A stretch of DNA of 44,082 bases from Minisyncoccota bacterium (GTDB lineage: Bacteria; Patescibacteriota; Minisyncoccia; UBA6257; 2-01-FULL-56-20), in NCBI GenBank assembly GCA_025449695.1, contig JANWIW010000026.1, forward strand, positions 1-44,082, given 5' to 3'. A program made the position numbers and the translations under genes. The first letter of the stretch is position 1. Each line of letters starts with the position of its first letter. The notes beneath the pieces are model-generated. The model searched no databases. It was not told where the DNA came from and worked only from the letters and a program-made list of their open reading frames with translations. This document shows, piece by piece, positions 34,761 through 44,082 of the stretch.

Positions 34761-34858
34761 TTGGTAGGTTGTAGTGCGTAGTGAGTAGCGCCCAAGCAGT
34801 TCGGCATATAAAATAATACGGTGGTTTTTTGCAACTCCCGCATTAAAGCACTTGTATT

Positions 34859-34976
34859 GTCATTCCCGCGACGCTTGTCCTCGCGAAGGCGGGGAGCGGG
34901 AATCAACTCCTGCGTCCTTTGCTTGATTCCCGCCGGAGTTTACGCCCGTGAAGACGGGTGCGGGAATGACAAAGCA
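34859..34976. repeat. REP-like GTCATTCCCGC pair
   Basis: GTCATTCCCGCGACG at the left and GTGCGGGAATGAC at the right are inverted; internal GAGCGGGAATCAA and TTGATTCCCGCCG also pair. The outer arms are the same family as 1-26 and 36896-36966. Confidence 0.85.
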
Positions 34977-35015: not shown

Positions 35016-35117
35016 ATGTCCGCGCCAGGAGCCCCTTCGACAAACTCAGGACAAGAGCGCGTCTGCCCCGCCTTCGCCAAGGCTACTGCGGGCACGGCAG
35101 AATTGTATGAACGCTGA
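35016..35117 (+). pseudogene. 33-codon leader frame made largely of repeats
   Basis: Reads MSAPGAPSTNSGQERVCPAF then AKATAGTAELYER, stopping at TGA 35115-35117, which overlaps the zinc-ribbon ATG at 35107. Its DNA contains CCTTCGACAAACTCAGGAC and CGCCTTCGCCAAGGCTACTG, words typical of dispersed repeats. It may be the displaced original N-terminus of the zinc-ribbon gene after repeat insertion, or a coupling leader. Confidence 0.45.
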
Positions 35118-36882
35118 AGAAAGAAACTGTCAGAATTGCAAAAGTCAGTTCGCCGTAGAGGCGGATGACTTCGATTTCTATAAAAAGGTGGAGGTGCCGC
35201 CGCCGACCTGGTGTCCGGAGTGCCGGTTGATACGACGCTTGTGTTGGCGGAACGAGCGATCCCTTCATAAACGGACCTGCGAGCTATGCGGCAAGACCAC
35301 TCTCGCTGTCTACGCGGAAGCAGCGCCAATTCACGTCTACTGTAACGAGTGCTGGTGGTCTGACAAGTGGGAGGCGATGGAACAGGGAGTTGACTTCGAT
35401 CCATCCCGGCCGTTTTTGGAACAGTTTTTTGATCTTATGCACAAGGTTCCCATGGTGAGCCGTTTCGGGCTCAATCCCAGTCTGGTGAACTCCGAGTACA
35501 CGAATATGGTGGGGTATCTCAAGAACTGTTATCTCCTCACTCATAGCGATTACAGTGAGGATTGCTCCTATGGAAGCAATGTCACCAACTCTAAGCAGTG
35601 CATCGATGCGTATCTCATCGATAAGTGCGAGTCGTGTTACGAGATAACGAACTGCCGTGATTGCTACCGGACCATGTTCTCCGTGGACTGCGTGAGCTGC
35701 CACAACGTCTATTTCAGCAAGAACTGCAGCGGCTGCACGGATTGCTTCGGCTGCGCCAACCTGCGCAATCAGAAGTACCATATCTTCAACCAGCCCTACA
35801 CCAAGGAAGAGTACGAGGCGAAATTGAAGGACCTTTACCCGTCGGACGTACTGAAAATACAGGACGCGTTCGCGAATGCGGAGGAGCTCTGGCGGGGGTA
35901 TCCGCAGAAGTACATGCACGAGCGGTTGAACTCTCACGTAACCGGAGATTACATCTATAACTCCAAGAACGTGCGTGACACATTCCTAGCTGGCAAGCTG
36001 GAAGATTCGCGTTTCTGCATGATGATCACGCCGGGCGAGGGGGTGATGTCCAACTCCTACGATTTCACCCACTTTGGCGAGAACTCCGAGCTCATGTATG
36101 AGGCACTGATGTGCGGCTGGTGCTCGCGCGTACGTTTCAGCTGGTTCATTACCGTCACCGGCCAGGACATCGAGTACAGCATCGGCTGCATCACGTGCAA
36201 GGACCTCTTCGGTTGCGTGGGACTAAAGAAGAAGCAGTATTGCATCCTGAACAAACAATATTCGAAAGAGGAGTTTGAAGCCCTGCGCGCGAGGATCCTC
36301 AAGCACATGGACGAGATGCCCTATGTGGACAAGCAGCGCAGAGTTTACAAATACGGCGAGTTTTTCCCAATGGAGGCGAGCCCGTTCGGGTATAACGAGA
36401 CGGCACACATCTATTTCCCGCTTGCCAAGGAAGATGCGGTGCAGCGCGGCTATGTCTGGCGAGAGCCGGATGAGCGGAACTACACGCCCACGAAAACGGG
36501 CAGCCAGTTGCCGCTCGAAGATTTTCTCGATTCGGTCAAAGAAGAGGTCGTGGCCTGTGACCACAAGGGCAAATGCATGCACAACTGTTCCACGGCGTTT
36601 CGGTTCATCCCGTACGAACTCGCGTTTTATAGGCAGAATAAGCTACCCCTGCCGCGACTTTGTACAAACTGTCGTCACGCGGAGCGTGTTGCCCGTACGA
36701 ACCCGCCGCGCCTCTGGGCACGGGAATGCATGTGTCGCGATGTGGAAGCGGCTGTCTATGCGAACACAAGCGAGCATTTCCACGGCGCGAACGCCTGTCC
36801 CAATCAGTTCGAAACCTCTTATTCGCCGGAAAATCCCACCATCGTGTATTGCGAACAGTGTTACCAGCAAGAGATGATATAA
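35107..36882 (+). CDS. Large zinc-ribbon / Cys-ladder protein, paralog 1 (591 aa)
   Basis: Function unknown. The N-terminal zinc module has four Cys pairs: C8/C11, C36/C39 (CPECR), C58/C61 (CELCG), C79/C82 (YCNECWW). The centre (about 130-240) repeats Cys at short intervals (NCYLLTHSDYSEDCSYG, CESCYEITNCRDCYRTM, NCSGCTDCFGCANLRNQKYH), like rungs of a beta-helix with a Cys ladder, followed by NQPYTKEEYEAKLKDL; a second ladder occurs near 345-390. The C-terminus repeats the first module (FIPYELAFYRQNKLPLPRLC, TNCRHAERVARTNP, YCEQCYQQ). It is paralogous to 37412-39109. About 50 cysteines and no signal peptide suggest a cytosolic metal-rich protein. ATG 35107 is chosen because longer frames run through repeats. 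Confidence 0.88.
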   Translation: MNAEERNCQNCKSQFAVEADDFDFYKKVEVPPPTWCPECRLIRRLCWRNERSLHKRTCELCGKTTLAVYAEAAPIHVYCNECWWSDKWEAMEQGVDFDPSRPFLEQFFDLMHKVPMVSRFGLNPSLVNSEYTNMVGYLKNCYLLTHSDYSEDCSYGSNVTNSKQCIDAYLIDKCESCYEITNCRDCYRTMFSVDCVSCHNVYFSKNCSGCTDCFGCANLRNQKYHIFNQPYTKEEYEAKLKDLYPSDVLKIQDAFANAEELWRGYPQKYMHERLNSHVTGDYIYNSKNVRDTFLAGKLEDSRFCMMITPGEGVMSNSYDFTHFGENSELMYEALMCGWCSRVRFSWFITVTGQDIEYSIGCITCKDLFGCVGLKKKQYCILNKQYSKEEFEALRARILKHMDEMPYVDKQRRVYKYGEFFPMEASPFGYNETAHIYFPLAKEDAVQRGYVWREPDERNYTPTKTGSQLPLEDFLDSVKEEVVACDHKGKCMHNCSTAFRFIPYELAFYRQNKLPLPRLCTNCRHAERVARTNPPRLWARECMCRDVEAAVYANTSEHFHGANACPNQFETSYSPENPTIVYCEQCYQQEMI

Positions 36883-36895
36883 ATATAAGGCGTTG

Positions 36896-36966
36896 TCATC
36901 CCTGCCCAGGCGGGGATCAGGCACAGGCGACGCGTACCTTGATTCCCGCCGTTGCGGGAATGACAG
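36896..36966. repeat. GTCATCCCTGCC / GCGGGAATGAC element
   Basis: GTCATCCCTGCCCAGGCGGG and ATTCCCGCCGTTGCGGGAAT, two adjacent stems, between the zinc-ribbon gene and the DUF2000 gene. Confidence 0.8.
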
Positions 36967-36973
36967 GATAGGG

Positions 36974-36982
36974 TGGTATATT
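36974..36982 (+). promoter_or_regulatory. Extended -10, leaderless, of the DUF2000 gene
   Basis: TGG-TATATT; the hexamer 36977-36982 ends 7 bases before the ATG at 36990. Confidence 0.65.
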
Positions 36983-36989
36983 AAATCTT

Positions 36990-37412
36990 ATGCCGCAGGA
37001 CTTCTCCAAGAGGATGGCCATCGTGGTGCGCGGAGACCTGCCCTCCTGGCAGGCGATGAACGCGGTGGCGCACATCTCCGCCTATCTGGGCAATAAGGTA
37101 AAGGAGCCGTTCGATACGGGCGAAAATTTCGAGACGAAGGACGGCGTGAAACACCCTCGCAACTCGCAGTACGCCATTATCGTCCTTAAAGGCGAAGCGA
37201 AGGACCTCACGGGATTCATGGGCGAGGTCCGCGCTTCCGGGTTGCCCTATCTCGGTTTCATCCGGGAAATGATCGAGACGACGGATGACGCGGAGATTGT
37301 GCAGGGGCTCTCGGGCAAGGATGATGCGGAGATCGAATACCTGGGCATCGGGCTCTTCGGGACGAACGAGGTTTTAAAAATGCTCACCAAGAAGTTCTCC
37401 CTGTGGAAGTAG
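36990..37412 (+). CDS. DUF2000 family protein
   Basis: MAIVVRGDLPSWQAMNAVAHISAYLG is the usual DUF2000 opening; NSQYAIIVLKGEAKDL and LPYLGFIREM follow. The fold is related to peptidyl-tRNA hydrolase 2, but activity is not established. At 140 aa it is of normal length. It sits between the two zinc-ribbon paralogs, and its stop overlaps the start of the second (TAGTG), so DUF2000 and zinc-ribbon protein 2 are translationally coupled. A functional link is likely but unproven. Confidence 0.88.
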   Translation: MPQDFSKRMAIVVRGDLPSWQAMNAVAHISAYLGNKVKEPFDTGENFETKDGVKHPRNSQYAIIVLKGEAKDLTGFMGEVRASGLPYLGFIREMIETTDDAEIVQGLSGKDDAEIEYLGIGLFGTNEVLKMLTKKFSLWK

Positions 37413-39109
37413 TGCCTCACAAAAGGGGGTGCCAGAATTGCAAGGCGCAGTTCGCCATAGGGGCGGACGACATCGATTTCTACAAGAAAGTTGACGTTCC
37501 GCCGCCCACCTTCTGTCCGCAGTGCCGGTTCCAGAGGCGGCTTATGTGGCGGAACGAACGCACTTTTTATAAACGGGACTGCGCCCTTTGTGGTAAAAAT
37601 GTCCTGACCAACTTCGCTCCCGATAAGGAGTTCGTGGTCTACTGCCAGCCCTGCTGGTGGTCCGACAAATACGACGCCGGCAGCTATGGGATGGATTATG
37701 ATCCGCACCGGCACTTCTTCGAACAGCTCCAGGAATTGATGCGCAAGGCCCCTTGGGCAGCGCTCTCGACCGGATACACCACCCTGGTCAATAGCGATTA
37801 CGTTAACGAAGCCGCCTATGCGAAGAACTCCTACCTCATTTTCAATGCGGACTACAACGAGAACTGCCTCTACGCATTCACCATCGATCACTGCAAAGAT
37901 GCCATGGACGCGAATCTTCTGGAAAGCTCCGAGCTTTGCTATGAACTGATAAACTGCGAGAAGTGTTTCAAAGCATTCTTCTCTGAGGATTGTATCAGCT
38001 GCACAAATGTCTATTTTTCAAAGAACCTGAGCGGATGCAACGATTGCTTTGGATGCGTTAACCTGCGGAACAAGAAGTATCACATCTGGAACGAACCCTG
38101 CACCAAGGAAGAATACGAAAAAAAACTGGAGGATCTCCGCCTAGATTCGTTCGCTGCGGTATCCAAGCTGCGGGAAGAAGCGTATAGATTTTGGAAGAAG
38201 TATCCTCACAAATTCATGCAGGGCGTGCACAATGTGAACGTGTCCGGGGATTACGTATGGGAATCGAAGAATTCGCATTTCATGTATCAGACACGGAGCG
38301 TCGAGGACGGAAAGTACTCGCAGTTCATGACCTTGGGGCCGGCGAAAGACATTATGGATCAGACGCAGTGGGGCAACGGGGTCCAGCGAATTTACGAGAC
38401 CCTAGGGGCGGGAGAAGGCGCAGATTTCATCCGTTTCTGCATGTGCTCGTGGTCCGAGTCAAGAGAGAATGAGTACTCCATATATGCCATTTCTTCTTCC
38501 TATTTGTTCGGCTGCGTCAACATGAGGAAAAAGAAGTTCTGTATCCTGAACAAGCAATACTCAGAGGAGGAATACCGCGCGCTTCGCGGGAAGATAATCG
38601 CGGACCTGGACGCGAATCCCTATGTCGACGCCAAAGGAAGGGTTTGGAAATACGGAGAGTTCCTTCCTTACGATCTGAGCCCCTTTGAATACAATGAAAC
38701 CACGGCTGCAGAATTGTATCCGCTCTCGAAAGAGGGAGTGCTGGACAACGGTTTCCGGTGGCGGGAGCCGGTCAAGAGCCTGCATGCCGTGACTCTCGCA
38801 ACAGATAAGATTCCAGACAGCATACAAAAGACCGAGGGCTCCATCACCAAAGAGATACTGGGTTGTATTCTCTGCGAGAAACCGTTCCGGATAGTGCCGA
38901 TGGAATTGGAGCTGCTGCGCCGGTTTAACCTGCCCCTGCCGCGCGCCTGCTCCAATTGCCGTCACTTGGCTCGCGTTGCCCGCACCAATCCGCCCCGGCT
39001 CTGGACGAGGAACTGCGGCAAATGCGGGAAAGAGATCCAGACCTCATATGCTCCTGAACGGCCAGAAGTGGTGTATTGCGAGCAGTGCTATCAGACCGAA
39101 GTGGCCTAA
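37412..39109 (+). CDS. Large zinc-ribbon / Cys-ladder protein, paralog 2 (565 aa)
   Basis: Same architecture as the 591-aa protein at 35107. N-terminal module GCQNCKAQFAIGADDIDFYK, CPQCRFQRRLMWRNER, CALCGKN, YCQPCWWSDKY. Then a Cys ladder (ELCYELINCEKCFKAFFSED, CISCTNVYFSKNLSGCNDCF), NEPCTKEEYEKKLEDL, a second half with FGCVNMRKKKFCILNKQYSE, and a C-terminal module FNLPLPRACSNCRHLARVAR, CGKCGKE, YCEQCYQTE. The start is GTG at 37412, overlapping the DUF2000 stop; GTG at 37403 is possible. Fewer central cysteines than paralog 1. It probably binds several zinc ions; role unknown. Confidence 0.88.
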   Translation: MPHKRGCQNCKAQFAIGADDIDFYKKVDVPPPTFCPQCRFQRRLMWRNERTFYKRDCALCGKNVLTNFAPDKEFVVYCQPCWWSDKYDAGSYGMDYDPHRHFFEQLQELMRKAPWAALSTGYTTLVNSDYVNEAAYAKNSYLIFNADYNENCLYAFTIDHCKDAMDANLLESSELCYELINCEKCFKAFFSEDCISCTNVYFSKNLSGCNDCFGCVNLRNKKYHIWNEPCTKEEYEKKLEDLRLDSFAAVSKLREEAYRFWKKYPHKFMQGVHNVNVSGDYVWESKNSHFMYQTRSVEDGKYSQFMTLGPAKDIMDQTQWGNGVQRIYETLGAGEGADFIRFCMCSWSESRENEYSIYAISSSYLFGCVNMRKKKFCILNKQYSEEEYRALRGKIIADLDANPYVDAKGRVWKYGEFLPYDLSPFEYNETTAAELYPLSKEGVLDNGFRWREPVKSLHAVTLATDKIPDSIQKTEGSITKEILGCILCEKPFRIVPMELELLRRFNLPLPRACSNCRHLARVARTNPPRLWTRNCGKCGKEIQTSYAPERPEVVYCEQCYQTEVA

Positions 39110-40520: not shown

Positions 40521-42122
40521 CTATTGGATGGTTGCCCTGTAAGCGCCGGGCGGCGGGATGACCGCCTCGTCTTCGCCCTCCACTATATAGCGGACATTAT
40601 GCTCCAATTGCCGCTCCGGGGAAAAGGTATCGGTCATGAACATGAACGTCTGGGCGAAGATGGGGACGTCATGGAAGCTGCCGGAGACAAAAGGATCGGG
40701 CATCGTGACGTGACCTCCGCTTGGCCGCAGGAATATGTATTTCGGCTGCTCATCGGGCAGGGCGCGCACCTCGCGTCCCAGGGCGACGTAATCCGCTCCG
40801 AACGCTCCGGGCACGTTAGGATTAGCCGCCCATATCCTGAAGTACGTATGGTATCCCTCGAACGTGAGCACAGCGAGCAGAACCCAGGCGCTGATGCGTA
40901 CGGCGTGCGCCGCAGACATGCTTTTCGCGATACCAAGGGCCTTATCATAGATCCATATCCCGCCGATCGCGGCGAGGGCCATGATCGGACAGGTCATGAG
41001 CAGGGAACGGAGCGCGTGGGGGATGCCTTCGTTCGAGAAGACCACTGAAAGAGCGGCAAGGAATATCCAGCCGAAAAGAAGGAGAGCGGCGAACCTCAAC
41101 CGGCTGTCATCCTGACCCCGCACTTGATGCGGGGGAAGGACCCTCTGTTTGTTGGAAAAGAAGGTTCTTCGGCTTTGCCTCAGAATGACAATTATGCCCA
41201 GTCCTGCGCCGATCCAGAACATGATGCCGGTAGGCCAGAAGAGCTGGGGCCGCCCGGCGGCGTTATGCCGCCAGTTGCCGTCGCCTTGGAAGTTCAGCAT
41301 ACCTACGGTCTTTACAGTGTTCACCGCCAGGTCTTTCAGCGGATGCGTTCCGGCGGTGATCGAAACGTCGGTGGTGCGCCCGAAAAAATCAGCGGGATGA
41401 CCGAGGAAATAGAGGCCGAGAGGGAGGGCCACGATGAAAGTGGCCAGGGCCAACATGCCGGCGGCCTTCCGGAAATGCGGCGTGCGGCGGAAGAAGGGGA
41501 TAAAGAGGAGGAAGAGAAGTGGCATCACCCGGTAGGAGATGTAGGAGTAGAACCCCAGACCGAAGAAGATGCCGGCCAGAATGGAATCTGGAATCTGGAA
41601 TCTGGAATCTGGACGGCGGAGTGCGCGGAGGAAAAAGAAGAGGGCCCATACTAAGAAAAACGAGGCGGTGATGGCGCGGAAACCGATCCGGGAAAAGTTG
41701 ATATGCCAAAACGAGGTTGCCAGCAGGAACGCGGCCAGCAGGCCTGCCCGATCGGCGTATGGAATCTTCCAGATTCCAGATTCCAGATTCCGCGTTCCCC
41801 GCAAGAGCTCCCGCACGAAGAAGAAGAGGCCGAGCACCGTCAGGATGCCGAAAATAGCGGAGGGCAGGCGCATCACCCAGGGCTCGCGAAGGCCCGTGGC
41901 CTGGAGGAAGAGGGCCTGTATGTTCATAAAAAGCCCTTCCCGGCCGTTATTCTCGGGATAAAATATTTTGAAGTCGCCGGTGCGCAGGGCCTCGAGCGCG
42001 TTCGAACCGTTCATCGCCTCGTCCGGGTAGAGGCCCGGAGGAGCGGTGGTTAAATGGTACGTCCGCAAGAAGGTTGCTATAATCAATATGCCAACCACGA
42101 GCCAGAATGTCCGACGATGCAT
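40521..42122 (-). CDS. Membrane glycosyltransferase (GT39/PMT-like), 533 aa
   Basis: Polytopic C-type glycosyltransferase, probably polyprenyl-phosphate-sugar dependent. Helix 1 (LVVGILIIATFLRTYHLT), loop with PPGLYPDEA (acidic catalytic-type motif, about 28-36) and NNGREGLF, then about ten more helices and a C-terminal periplasmic domain. Three dispersed repeats are read in frame at 109-122 (TRNLESGIWKIP), 170-181 (PDSRFQIPDS) and about 315-341 (RQSRRTFFSNKQRVLPPHQV), each in a loop between membrane helices. The upstream TACAAT lies 8 bases before the ATG. Forms an operon with ddl. Acceptor (glycan or protein) unknown. Confidence 0.85.
   Translation of the reverse strand: MHRRTFWLVVGILIIATFLRTYHLTTAPPGLYPDEAMNGSNALEALRTGDFKIFYPENNGREGLFMNIQALFLQATGLREPWVMRLPSAIFGILTVLGLFFFVRELLRGTRNLESGIWKIPYADRAGLLAAFLLATSFWHINFSRIGFRAITASFFLVWALFFFLRALRRPDSRFQIPDSILAGIFFGLGFYSYISYRVMPLLFLLFIPFFRRTPHFRKAAGMLALATFIVALPLGLYFLGHPADFFGRTTDVSITAGTHPLKDLAVNTVKTVGMLNFQGDGNWRHNAAGRPQLFWPTGIMFWIGAGLGIIVILRQSRRTFFSNKQRVLPPHQVRGQDDSRLRFAALLLFGWIFLAALSVVFSNEGIPHALRSLLMTCPIMALAAIGGIWIYDKALGIAKSMSAAHAVRISAWVLLAVLTFEGYHTYFRIWAANPNVPGAFGADYVALGREVRALPDEQPKYIFLRPSGGHVTMPDPFVSGSFHDVPIFAQTFMFMTDTFSPERQLEHNVRYIVEGEDEAVIPPPGAYRATIQ
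41104..41190. repeat. TGTCATCCTGA element in frame in the GT39-like gene
   Basis: CTGTCATCCTGACCCCGC to GCCTCAGAATGACA, the same family as 6311-6394, translated as about 27 basic residues in an inter-helix loop. Confidence 0.85.
41579..41616. repeat. GAATCTG repeat in frame in the GT39-like gene (1)
   Basis: Four tandem GGAATCT words, read on the minus strand as DSRFQIPDS between two membrane helices. Confidence 0.85.
41760..41796. repeat. GAATCTG repeat in frame in the GT39-like gene (2)
   Basis: TGGAATCTT followed by CCAGATTCCAGATTCC, read on the minus strand as RNLESGIWKIP after a membrane helix. Confidence 0.85.
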
Positions 42123-42702: not shown

Positions 42703-44082
42703 ATGTCCCTCCAAACGATCATCGGTATCGGCATCGGTCTCCTCGTGGCCGTGGCGTTCTATTTCATCTGGCGCTGGACACGAGTCCGCGTCCTCAAGGG
42801 CTCCCTCGGACAGGACCTGCTCCTCATCAAGATACCGAAGGAGGCGATGCAGGCCAATAACAACCAGAACATGCGGGAGTTCAGGTACGTGGAAACAGAG
42901 ATTATCAAGTTCGAAGAACTCCTGGGCAGCCTGGCCGGCATCAAGGAGACGGTGGTCCTGGAGATGGCGGTGCCGCACGTGGGCGAAGAGATCCATTTTT
43001 ATGCCTCGGTGCCGAAAAAGTACAGCGAGGTCACCGCGAAGCAGGTCCAGAGCATTTGGAACGGAGCGTCGGTGGAAAAGATCTCCGACGATTACAACAT
43101 ATTCAATCCCCAGGGCACGTCCGTCGGGGCGTATCTCAAGTTGAAGGACCACTTCGCCCTGCCCATCCGCAGCTACCGGGAGATCCAGACGGACACGGTG
43201 AACCCCATCTTCGGCGGTTTCGCCAAAGTGGCAGAAATAGGGGAAGGAGCGGCCATGCAGGTCGTCCTCAGGCGCCCGGGCCGGCGGCCGAAGAAGAACA
43301 TCCGCCGCGCCCTGAACGGCTTGAAGCAGGGCTGGTCGGTGGACCAGGTGCTCGGCCTCAGCTGGTGGAAGCTCCTGAAGGGCGTGCTCCACCCCAAGTA
43401 CCAGAAGCGCGGCGAGGTGGAGGATAAGGTGGTGGACGAGGAGGCCGTAAAGGCGGTCACCGCCAAGATGGCGAAGCCTCTCTTCATGGTGAACGTGCGC
43501 ATCCTGGCCTCGGGACCTTCGCCCTTCCAGGCGAACGACGTGTTGAACGGCATCGTCACCGTGTTCGAGCAGTTCACGAGCCCTGCCCGCAATAACCTGC
43601 GGGTAATGAAGCCGCGCAATCCCAAGGGGCTCATCTACGATTTCATCTTCCGTAAATATGAATCCTCGCAGGCGATGATTCTTACGAGCGAGGAGATAGC
43701 CAGCCTTTATCACTTCCCGACGCCGTTCACGGAAACGCCGCGCATAAAGTGGCTGAAGTCCAAGGAGGCCCCGCCGCCGCCCGACGTGCCCACGGAAGGC
43801 ACCCTGCTCGGCGAGAGCGATTTCCGCGGCGACCGCCGTCCGATCCGCATCGCCCCAGCCGACCGGAAGCGCCACGTCTACATCATCGGTCAGACCGGCA
43901 CCGGCAAATCCACCCTGCTCTCCGCGATGATCATCGAGGACATCAAGCAGGGGAAGGGAGCGGCCCTGGTGGACCCCCATGGCGACCTAGTGGAGACCGT
44001 GCTCGGCCACATTCCCACAGAGCGCGCGGAGGACGTGATCGTCTTCGATCCTGGCGACCTGGCCCGTCCGCTCGGCATGAAC
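42703..44082 (+). CDS. Type IV secretion-like (VirD4/TraG, DUF87) ATPase, 5' part
   Basis: Open for 460 codons to the window edge. One N-terminal membrane helix (residues 4-24, TIIGIGIGLLVAVAFYFIWR) is followed by a large beta-rich N-terminal domain of about 350 residues (VLEMAVPHVGEEIHFYASVP, FMVNVRILASGPSPFQANDV). The RecA-like motor then begins: HVYIIGQTGTGKSTLLSAMI (Walker A GQTGTGKS about residue 400) and GAALVDPHGDLVETVL. It resembles coupling-protein ATPases that are frequent in CPR genomes, where they may serve DNA transfer or pili. The C-terminal motor is outside the window. Confidence 0.88.
   Translation, partial: MSLQTIIGIGIGLLVAVAFYFIWRWTRVRVLKGSLGQDLLLIKIPKEAMQANNNQNMREFRYVETEIIKFEELLGSLAGIKETVVLEMAVPHVGEEIHFYASVPKKYSEVTAKQVQSIWNGASVEKISDDYNIFNPQGTSVGAYLKLKDHFALPIRSYREIQTDTVNPIFGGFAKVAEIGEGAAMQVVLRRPGRRPKKNIRRALNGLKQGWSVDQVLGLSWWKLLKGVLHPKYQKRGEVEDKVVDEEAVKAVTAKMAKPLFMVNVRILASGPSPFQANDVLNGIVTVFEQFTSPARNNLRVMKPRNPKGLIYDFIFRKYESSQAMILTSEEIASLYHFPTPFTETPRIKWLKSKEAPPPPDVPTEGTLLGESDFRGDRRPIRIAPADRKRHVYIIGQTGTGKSTLLSAMIIEDIKQGKGAALVDPHGDLVETVLGHIPTERAEDVIVFDPGDLARPLGMN

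Follow-up and report, generated by a model that had tools for sequence, protein, structure and literature searches.

The window analysed here, a 44,082-nucleotide stretch of a Minisyncoccota bacterium genome (assembly GCA_025449695.1, contig JANWIW010000026.1, contig C26 below), encodes two large cysteine-rich proteins, members 1 and 2, which had been described from the sequence alone as a pair of zinc-ribbon paralogs around a DUF2000 gene. Both open reading frames (ORFs) are real and their products are 48% identical, but the pair is only part of a much larger set: searching the genome that contains the window revealed about 23 family genes, which together take up 40.1 kb, or 4.1%, of its assembly (983,527 bp, 92.7% complete). 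Across Patescibacteria, the family co-occurs with, and is genetically linked to, one VirD4/TraD-type ATPase, here termed type A. Given this near-exclusive co-occurrence, the family is probably cargo or a partner of that ATPase.

VirD4/TraD-type ATPases were the commonest neighbours of family genes in the loci that we fetched, and three types could be distinguished. Type A (~480-520 amino acids [aa]) tracks the family, being present in 13 of 14 family-positive and in 0 of 27 family-negative relatives of the window genome. Type B (~580-770 aa) often lies beside family arrays and bears, in 18 of 21 proteins as judged by pattern, a zf_Tbcl_2 finger in its tail, as found in the family. Type C (~790 aa) occurs in nearly all relatives, with or without the family. 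The loci were fetched via family matches and are thus biased to family neighbourhoods; the co-occurrence and distance tests are independent of them.

In the 384 genomes of the window's class, presence of the family and of type A agreed in 372, with 45 genomes carrying both, four type A only, eight the family only (two of them marginal) and 327 neither (Fisher p=1.5e-45). The genomes surveyed are metagenome-assembled genomes (MAGs), some incomplete. Type A was called by a clear E-value gap, and nine A-like genes of family-negative genomes, diverged to 50-68% identity, are excluded from the strict count. As Fisher tests take genomes as independent, we also shuffled labels within taxonomic families of this class, the only comparison that corrects for relatedness; 40 concordant positives were observed against 31.7 expected (p=5e-6). 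In an independent sample of other classes, the 19 genomes with the family were the same 19 that had an A-type ATPase (51-56% identity), with 0 discordant among 263 (p=2.5e-29); here, only full-length family members with E<1e-80 were counted, leaving out short zinc proteins and degraded fragments. Thresholds for type A, in the window's class and in the other classes alike, were chosen after the lists had been viewed.

The association extends to gene order and gene integrity. Type A lay within 1.5 kb of a listed family gene in 16 of the 45 doubly positive genomes, compared to about one expected, and on the same strand in 16/16; this proximity is an underestimate, because the large surveys located only the few best family matches of each genome. 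Moreover, type A genes with in-frame stops were seen only in family-negative genomes (2/4 by the strict count, 5/13 when diverged A-like genes are included, vs 0/45).

The motor domains of all three ATPase types resemble those of VirD4/TraD/TrwB coupling proteins. Type A carries the Pfam domains TrwB_AAD_bind, T4SS-DNA_transf and TraG-D_C, with Walker A and B motifs in 31/31 proteins, and works like a motor of a type IV secretion system (T4SS). It begins almost directly at the ATPase domain, however, and because an N-terminal membrane anchor of its own is missing we do not file it as a canonical type IV coupling protein. Type A is typically accompanied by a protein of ~460 aa with a hydrophobic N-terminus, T, which is predicted to resemble the N-terminal region of VirB4 ATPases. 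The best 13 PDB matches to a structure model of T (predicted local distance difference test [pLDDT] 71) were all chains of the R388 T4SS, mostly TrwK/VirB4 (E 5e-5 to 6.5e-4, probability 0.98-1.00), with template-modelling (TM) scores of only 0.28-0.37 over the query.

A typical cluster comprises secD, secF, a sigma-70 region 4 gene, T, a ~184 aa protein with one membrane segment, type A, sometimes a CutA-like gene, and then family genes. On contig C29 of the window genome the order is T, a ~200 aa ORF, type A, an 87-aa ORF, a 1535-aa ORF and a family gene; the 1535-aa ORF (L099:1663-6267) is without any Pfam match. In other classes, type A and a T-like domain form one fused protein (~745 aa), whose gene directly adjoins arrays of as many as seven family genes. 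Calls between A and B based on hidden Markov models gave near-equal scores for these fused proteins, whose assignment to type A is based on their exclusive presence and linkage. Family-negative genomes, too, contain T-like genes, of lower identity (mostly 28-44%) and in several cases next to a type B ATPase; T-A thus seems to be a specialised version of a general T-B pair, related to it by paralogy. Other recurrent neighbours, namely pgk, dnaK, leucyl aminopeptidase, secDF and trmD-comEC, were considered as partners and set aside, because their presence resembles the usual synteny of housekeeping genes. A multi-pass membrane protein that by eye resembles a GT-C glycosyltransferase adjoins the fused T-A gene in another class (L151:658-2127, L158:1-1783, L160:4747-6147).

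Many family genes lie in tight arrays of 2-8, and in all fetched loci adjacent family genes share the same strand (136/136 pairs) at a median gap of 25 bp. Inside one array, on contig C31 of the window genome, lies an ATP-binding cassette (ABC) exporter gene with membrane and ATPase domains (L096:10441-12213), and ORFs related to it occur near family genes in four other loci. Of 41 relatives, 14 carry the family (3-30 matches each) and 27 do not. As far as tested, the family is confined to Patescibacteria: the 80 matches listed from a species-level genome collection all belong to Patescibacteria lineages or to MAGs without a lineage name, and other classes of the phylum carry it as well. By first-look counts, copy number spans 0-26 inside one genus that keeps type A. 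In a family tree, the nearest relative lay within the same genome in 9 cases, against 11.8 expected by chance; the copies are old and distinct, and recent amplification was rejected. A phage or plasmid origin was likewise discarded: tblastn gave no match in phage or plasmid collections, and viral contigs yielded a single short fragment. Many genomes of the phylum also encode stand-alone proteins of ~100 aa that match only the N-terminal zinc module (e.g. G504:C1:66108-66362) and that may represent the ancestral unit.

The features of the window on which the following description rests are, all on the + strand:

35107..36882, +, family member 1 (P0001), 591 aa, by ORF call
35107..35382, +, member 1 N-terminal double treble-clef zinc module (Cys 8, 11, 36, 39 / 58, 61, 79, 82), by ligand conservation and covariation
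35497..35814, +, member 1 first solenoid ('ladder') domain, residues 131-236, by Cys-Cys spacing and AlphaFold2 (AF2) model
35938..36276, +, member 1 second solenoid domain, residues 278-390, by hhalign homology to the first
36277..36537, +, member 1 conserved helical core/linker, residues 391-477 (MPYxDxxGRxYxYGEFFP...YNET), by conservation across members
36538..36879, +, member 1 C-terminal double treble-clef zinc module, by homology to the N-terminal module and conserved Cys
36990..37412, +, DUF2000 gene (PF09391, E=1.7e-28), 140 aa, a local neighbour and no conserved partner
37412..39109, +, family member 2 (P0002), 565 aa, by ORF call; its GTG start overlaps the DUF2000 stop by one base
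38850..39106 (start approximate), +, member 2 C-terminal zinc module, zf_Tbcl_2/TIGR04272-like, by PF23477 and TIGR04272 matches
42703..44082, +, type C VirD4/VirB4-like ATPase, N-terminal 460 aa, near the family pair and running off the contig

Family proteins follow the order zinc module, solenoid 1, solenoid 2, core, zinc module. The start column of member 1 is Met in 88% of homologs, and its AF2 model has a pLDDT of 87.9 and a predicted TM-score of 0.90. A likeness between the terminal modules had been noted before, and profile comparison bears it out (probability 99.6, E=2.8e-24); the two solenoid, or rung, domains are homologous as well (hhalign probability 99.9, E=4.8e-34). At the level of sequence profiles, the symmetric design is thus real and far beyond chance. 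The rungs had been said to end in an N-x-x-[YC]-[ST]-KEEYE segment, and indeed FGCxxLRxKxYxIxNxxYxKEEY closes both rung domains. Four Cys pairs had been proposed for each end; zinc modules are present at both, but the C-terminal module of member 1 is less regular than this. Among 244 diverse members (median pairwise identity 41%), mean pairwise identity is 0.46-0.49 in the end modules and core (0.46 for residues 383-477 of the core) vs 0.28-0.36 in the solenoids and middle.

Domain searches found no known family, in line with the initial impression of an architecture without known function. Member 2 matches PF23477 (zf_Tbcl_2) with 30.1 bits (cut-off 27, E=4e-7) and TIGR04272 with E=1.1e-5, under the cut-off of that model; member 1 stays under detection for treble-clef models, its modules being tied in by profile homology. 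Direct matches to zf_Tbcl_2 and zf_Tbcl were obtained for 6/30 and 4/30 members, respectively. The end modules are like the CxxC-x17-CxxC fingers of zf_Tbcl (PF13451), zf_Tbcl_2 and TIGR04272, but these known models cover short fingers only, whereas the family has two double modules flanking a duplicated solenoid and core in ~590 aa. No known fold could be assigned to the whole chain: there was no convincing PDB or viral match, only zinc-ribbon hits and weak Foldseek matches to solenoids (TM-score over the query ≤0.13 among the matches listed). Some members may go under the misleading database name 'Caib/baif family protein'.

The cysteines of the ends and of the ladder behave differently. In the 244 members, Cys 8, 11, 36 and 39 are conserved at 98-99% and the C-terminal Cys 484, 494, 519, 522, 541, 564, 582 and 585 at 88-100%. 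Half of the members have the second N-terminal site, and its Cys 61, 79 and 82 are kept or lost jointly (r=0.98-1.0, at most two exceptions per pair), and thus behave like a true metal site; C58 is also found in ~55 members that lack these three. Cysteines of the ladder, by contrast, show only partial conservation (0.1-0.96 in individual columns), alternate there with Ser, Val, Leu and Ala, and covary weakly at most (r up to about 0.4). In the first solenoid they are spaced almost only at multiples of three residues (observed/expected 2.5-3.9, compared to <0.2 at other distances). The AF2 model shows short strands every three residues in the solenoid, with a pLDDT of only ~62-65 at residues 171-220 of member 1. 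This spacing, the swaps with Ser, Val and Leu and the weak covariation together make the ladder cysteines look like core packing rather than a metal ladder. The simplest reading is a narrow β-solenoid with an inward position at every third residue, where Cys is one of several accepted core residues; column spacings of 12 (141, 153, 165, 177 and 174, 186, 198, 210) suggest 12-residue coils. Strict periodicity and small inward residues are shared with narrow β-solenoids such as ice-binding proteins and hexapeptide left-handed helices, from which the family differs in its three-residue register lined with Cys and Ser and in its unrelated sequence.

How, then, might the family and the ATPase work together? 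It may well be, though we hold this tentatively, that the family is a diversified repertoire of folded proteins handled, and probably exported, by the T4SS-like T-A ATPase. Each genome would keep a set of 1-30 divergent zinc-capped solenoid proteins. The T-A machine, with type A as the VirD4/TraD-type motor, T as a VirB4-like N-terminal domain (paired or fused) and type B as partner, would recognise the conserved end modules and core; the less conserved solenoid middle or surface, differing from copy to copy, would give each protein its target specificity. The ATPase would then move or deploy the proteins, probably across the cell envelope, for interactions with host or neighbour cells. The family combines linkage to a secretion motor with variable copy number, a trait typical of T4SS cargo if not strictly defining. 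Several observations weigh against such a role. Hydropathy shows no membrane segment in family proteins, nor did they display a recognisable signal peptide or type IV secretion signal. No membrane segment is predicted for the fused T-A ATPase of other classes, which could therefore be a soluble motor, and the T model is only moderate, with PDB matches of low TM-score. Finally, the complete genome G081 has an intact type A gene and zero family genes, and G066, G231, G209 and G028 have family genes without type A. The near-obligate co-occurrence, the operon-like linkage and the zinc finger common to the family and type B would also fit a structural or adaptor role within the T-A machine, for instance as subunits of a cytoplasmic or surface assembly. 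We consider this unlikely, if worth keeping in mind: 0-26 copies within one genus and the low median identity would be unusual for a fixed component, and because the copies vary so widely in a genus that keeps type A, and are old and distinct, cargo is favoured over a machine part.

A DNA-centred system, in which T-A would be a DNA-translocating motor for Ced- or HerA-like import or for defence, with the zinc-ended proteins as binders or mimics of nucleic acid, appears rather improbable. Both treble clefs and solenoids are capable of binding nucleic acid or imitating it; weak scores were obtained against CedD and TraD models for types A, B and C, and against HerA models for A and B; and the type B gene is followed by trmD and comEC (L123:13943-18686, L092:1523-6533), an order hinting at a link between the ATPase and DNA uptake. 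Yet Pfam-type domain scans of family proteins detected neither a nuclease nor a relaxase domain, net charge is only mildly negative (median -5), and 20-30 divergent copies would be hard to account for. PADLOC returned no match for family proteins, for which reason an anti-phage system was rejected as well. Metal storage, already raised by the sequence-only reading, or a redox ladder is very unlikely. Most members do carry about 30-40 Cys, and CutA-like (divalent cation tolerance) genes stand right after type A or near arrays in several genomes (e.g. L123:13407-13712), but the ladder cysteines lack the conservation and covariation of true zinc ligands, and one residue in three is simply the inward position of a solenoid; a metallothionein-like store was discarded on these grounds. 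We give almost no credence to the two paralogs and DUF2000 forming a functional unit, as in the tRNA- or peptide-related machine once envisaged, for which no support emerged; the conserved partner is a type-IV-secretion-type ATPase. The one-base overlap of the DUF2000 gene with member 2 (TAGTG) is as first described, and all three DUF2000-bearing genomes among the 41 relatives are family-positive. DUF2000 is nevertheless missing from 11 of the 14 family-positive relatives, and scanning of other loci around family genes uncovered none, so that its adjacency is limited to this window and a functional partnership was rejected, by the very criterion that the sequence-only reading had set for its refutation.

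More tentatively than the cargo role itself, we suggest that a secretion-type system not described before exists in Patescibacteria, with a VirB4/VirD4-like ATPase, split or fused, that deploys a large repertoire of folded, zinc-capped solenoid proteins with fast turnover. If true, the family would rank among the largest protein investments of these minimal genomes and could be what sets their specificity for a host or partner. Patescibacteria form a very large group, for the most part uncultured; with their tiny genomes they rely on other cells, and the proteins that they send there are poorly characterised. A family that fills 4% of such a genome, is retained or lost as a set and follows a single secretion-type ATPase with few exceptions makes a strong candidate, and many 'hypothetical' genes gain a first functional context. 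Passages of a survey of Patescibacteria T4SS report many VirD4 homologs away from virB4 (PMC12102498), for which the family might be a substrate; relative to the T4SS set in these passages, type A is an extra paralog, linked to the family and split from or fused to T. The same passages, which do not mention the family, describe tandem arrays of divergent VirB2 pilin paralogs tied to T4SS genes (PMC12102498). Family arrays resemble these in their tandem divergent paralogs, but pilins are small, whereas the family proteins are large, soluble and zinc-bearing. A literature search, whose coverage excluded subscription papers, preprints and supplements, found no description of the family.

Within the window, the type C gene is split by the contig end, and its C-terminal half lies at the end of contig C31. 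Because the two halves sit at their ends, contigs C26 and C31 are likely neighbours, and their family arrays probably form one region. Member 2 has an alternative in-frame GTG start at 37403, and a GT39-like gene lies at 40521-42122. Similar intergenic segments (gtcattcccgc ... gcgggaatgac) flank member 1 at 34850-34970 and 36895-36965; judged by eye, these are likely a dispersed genomic repeat.

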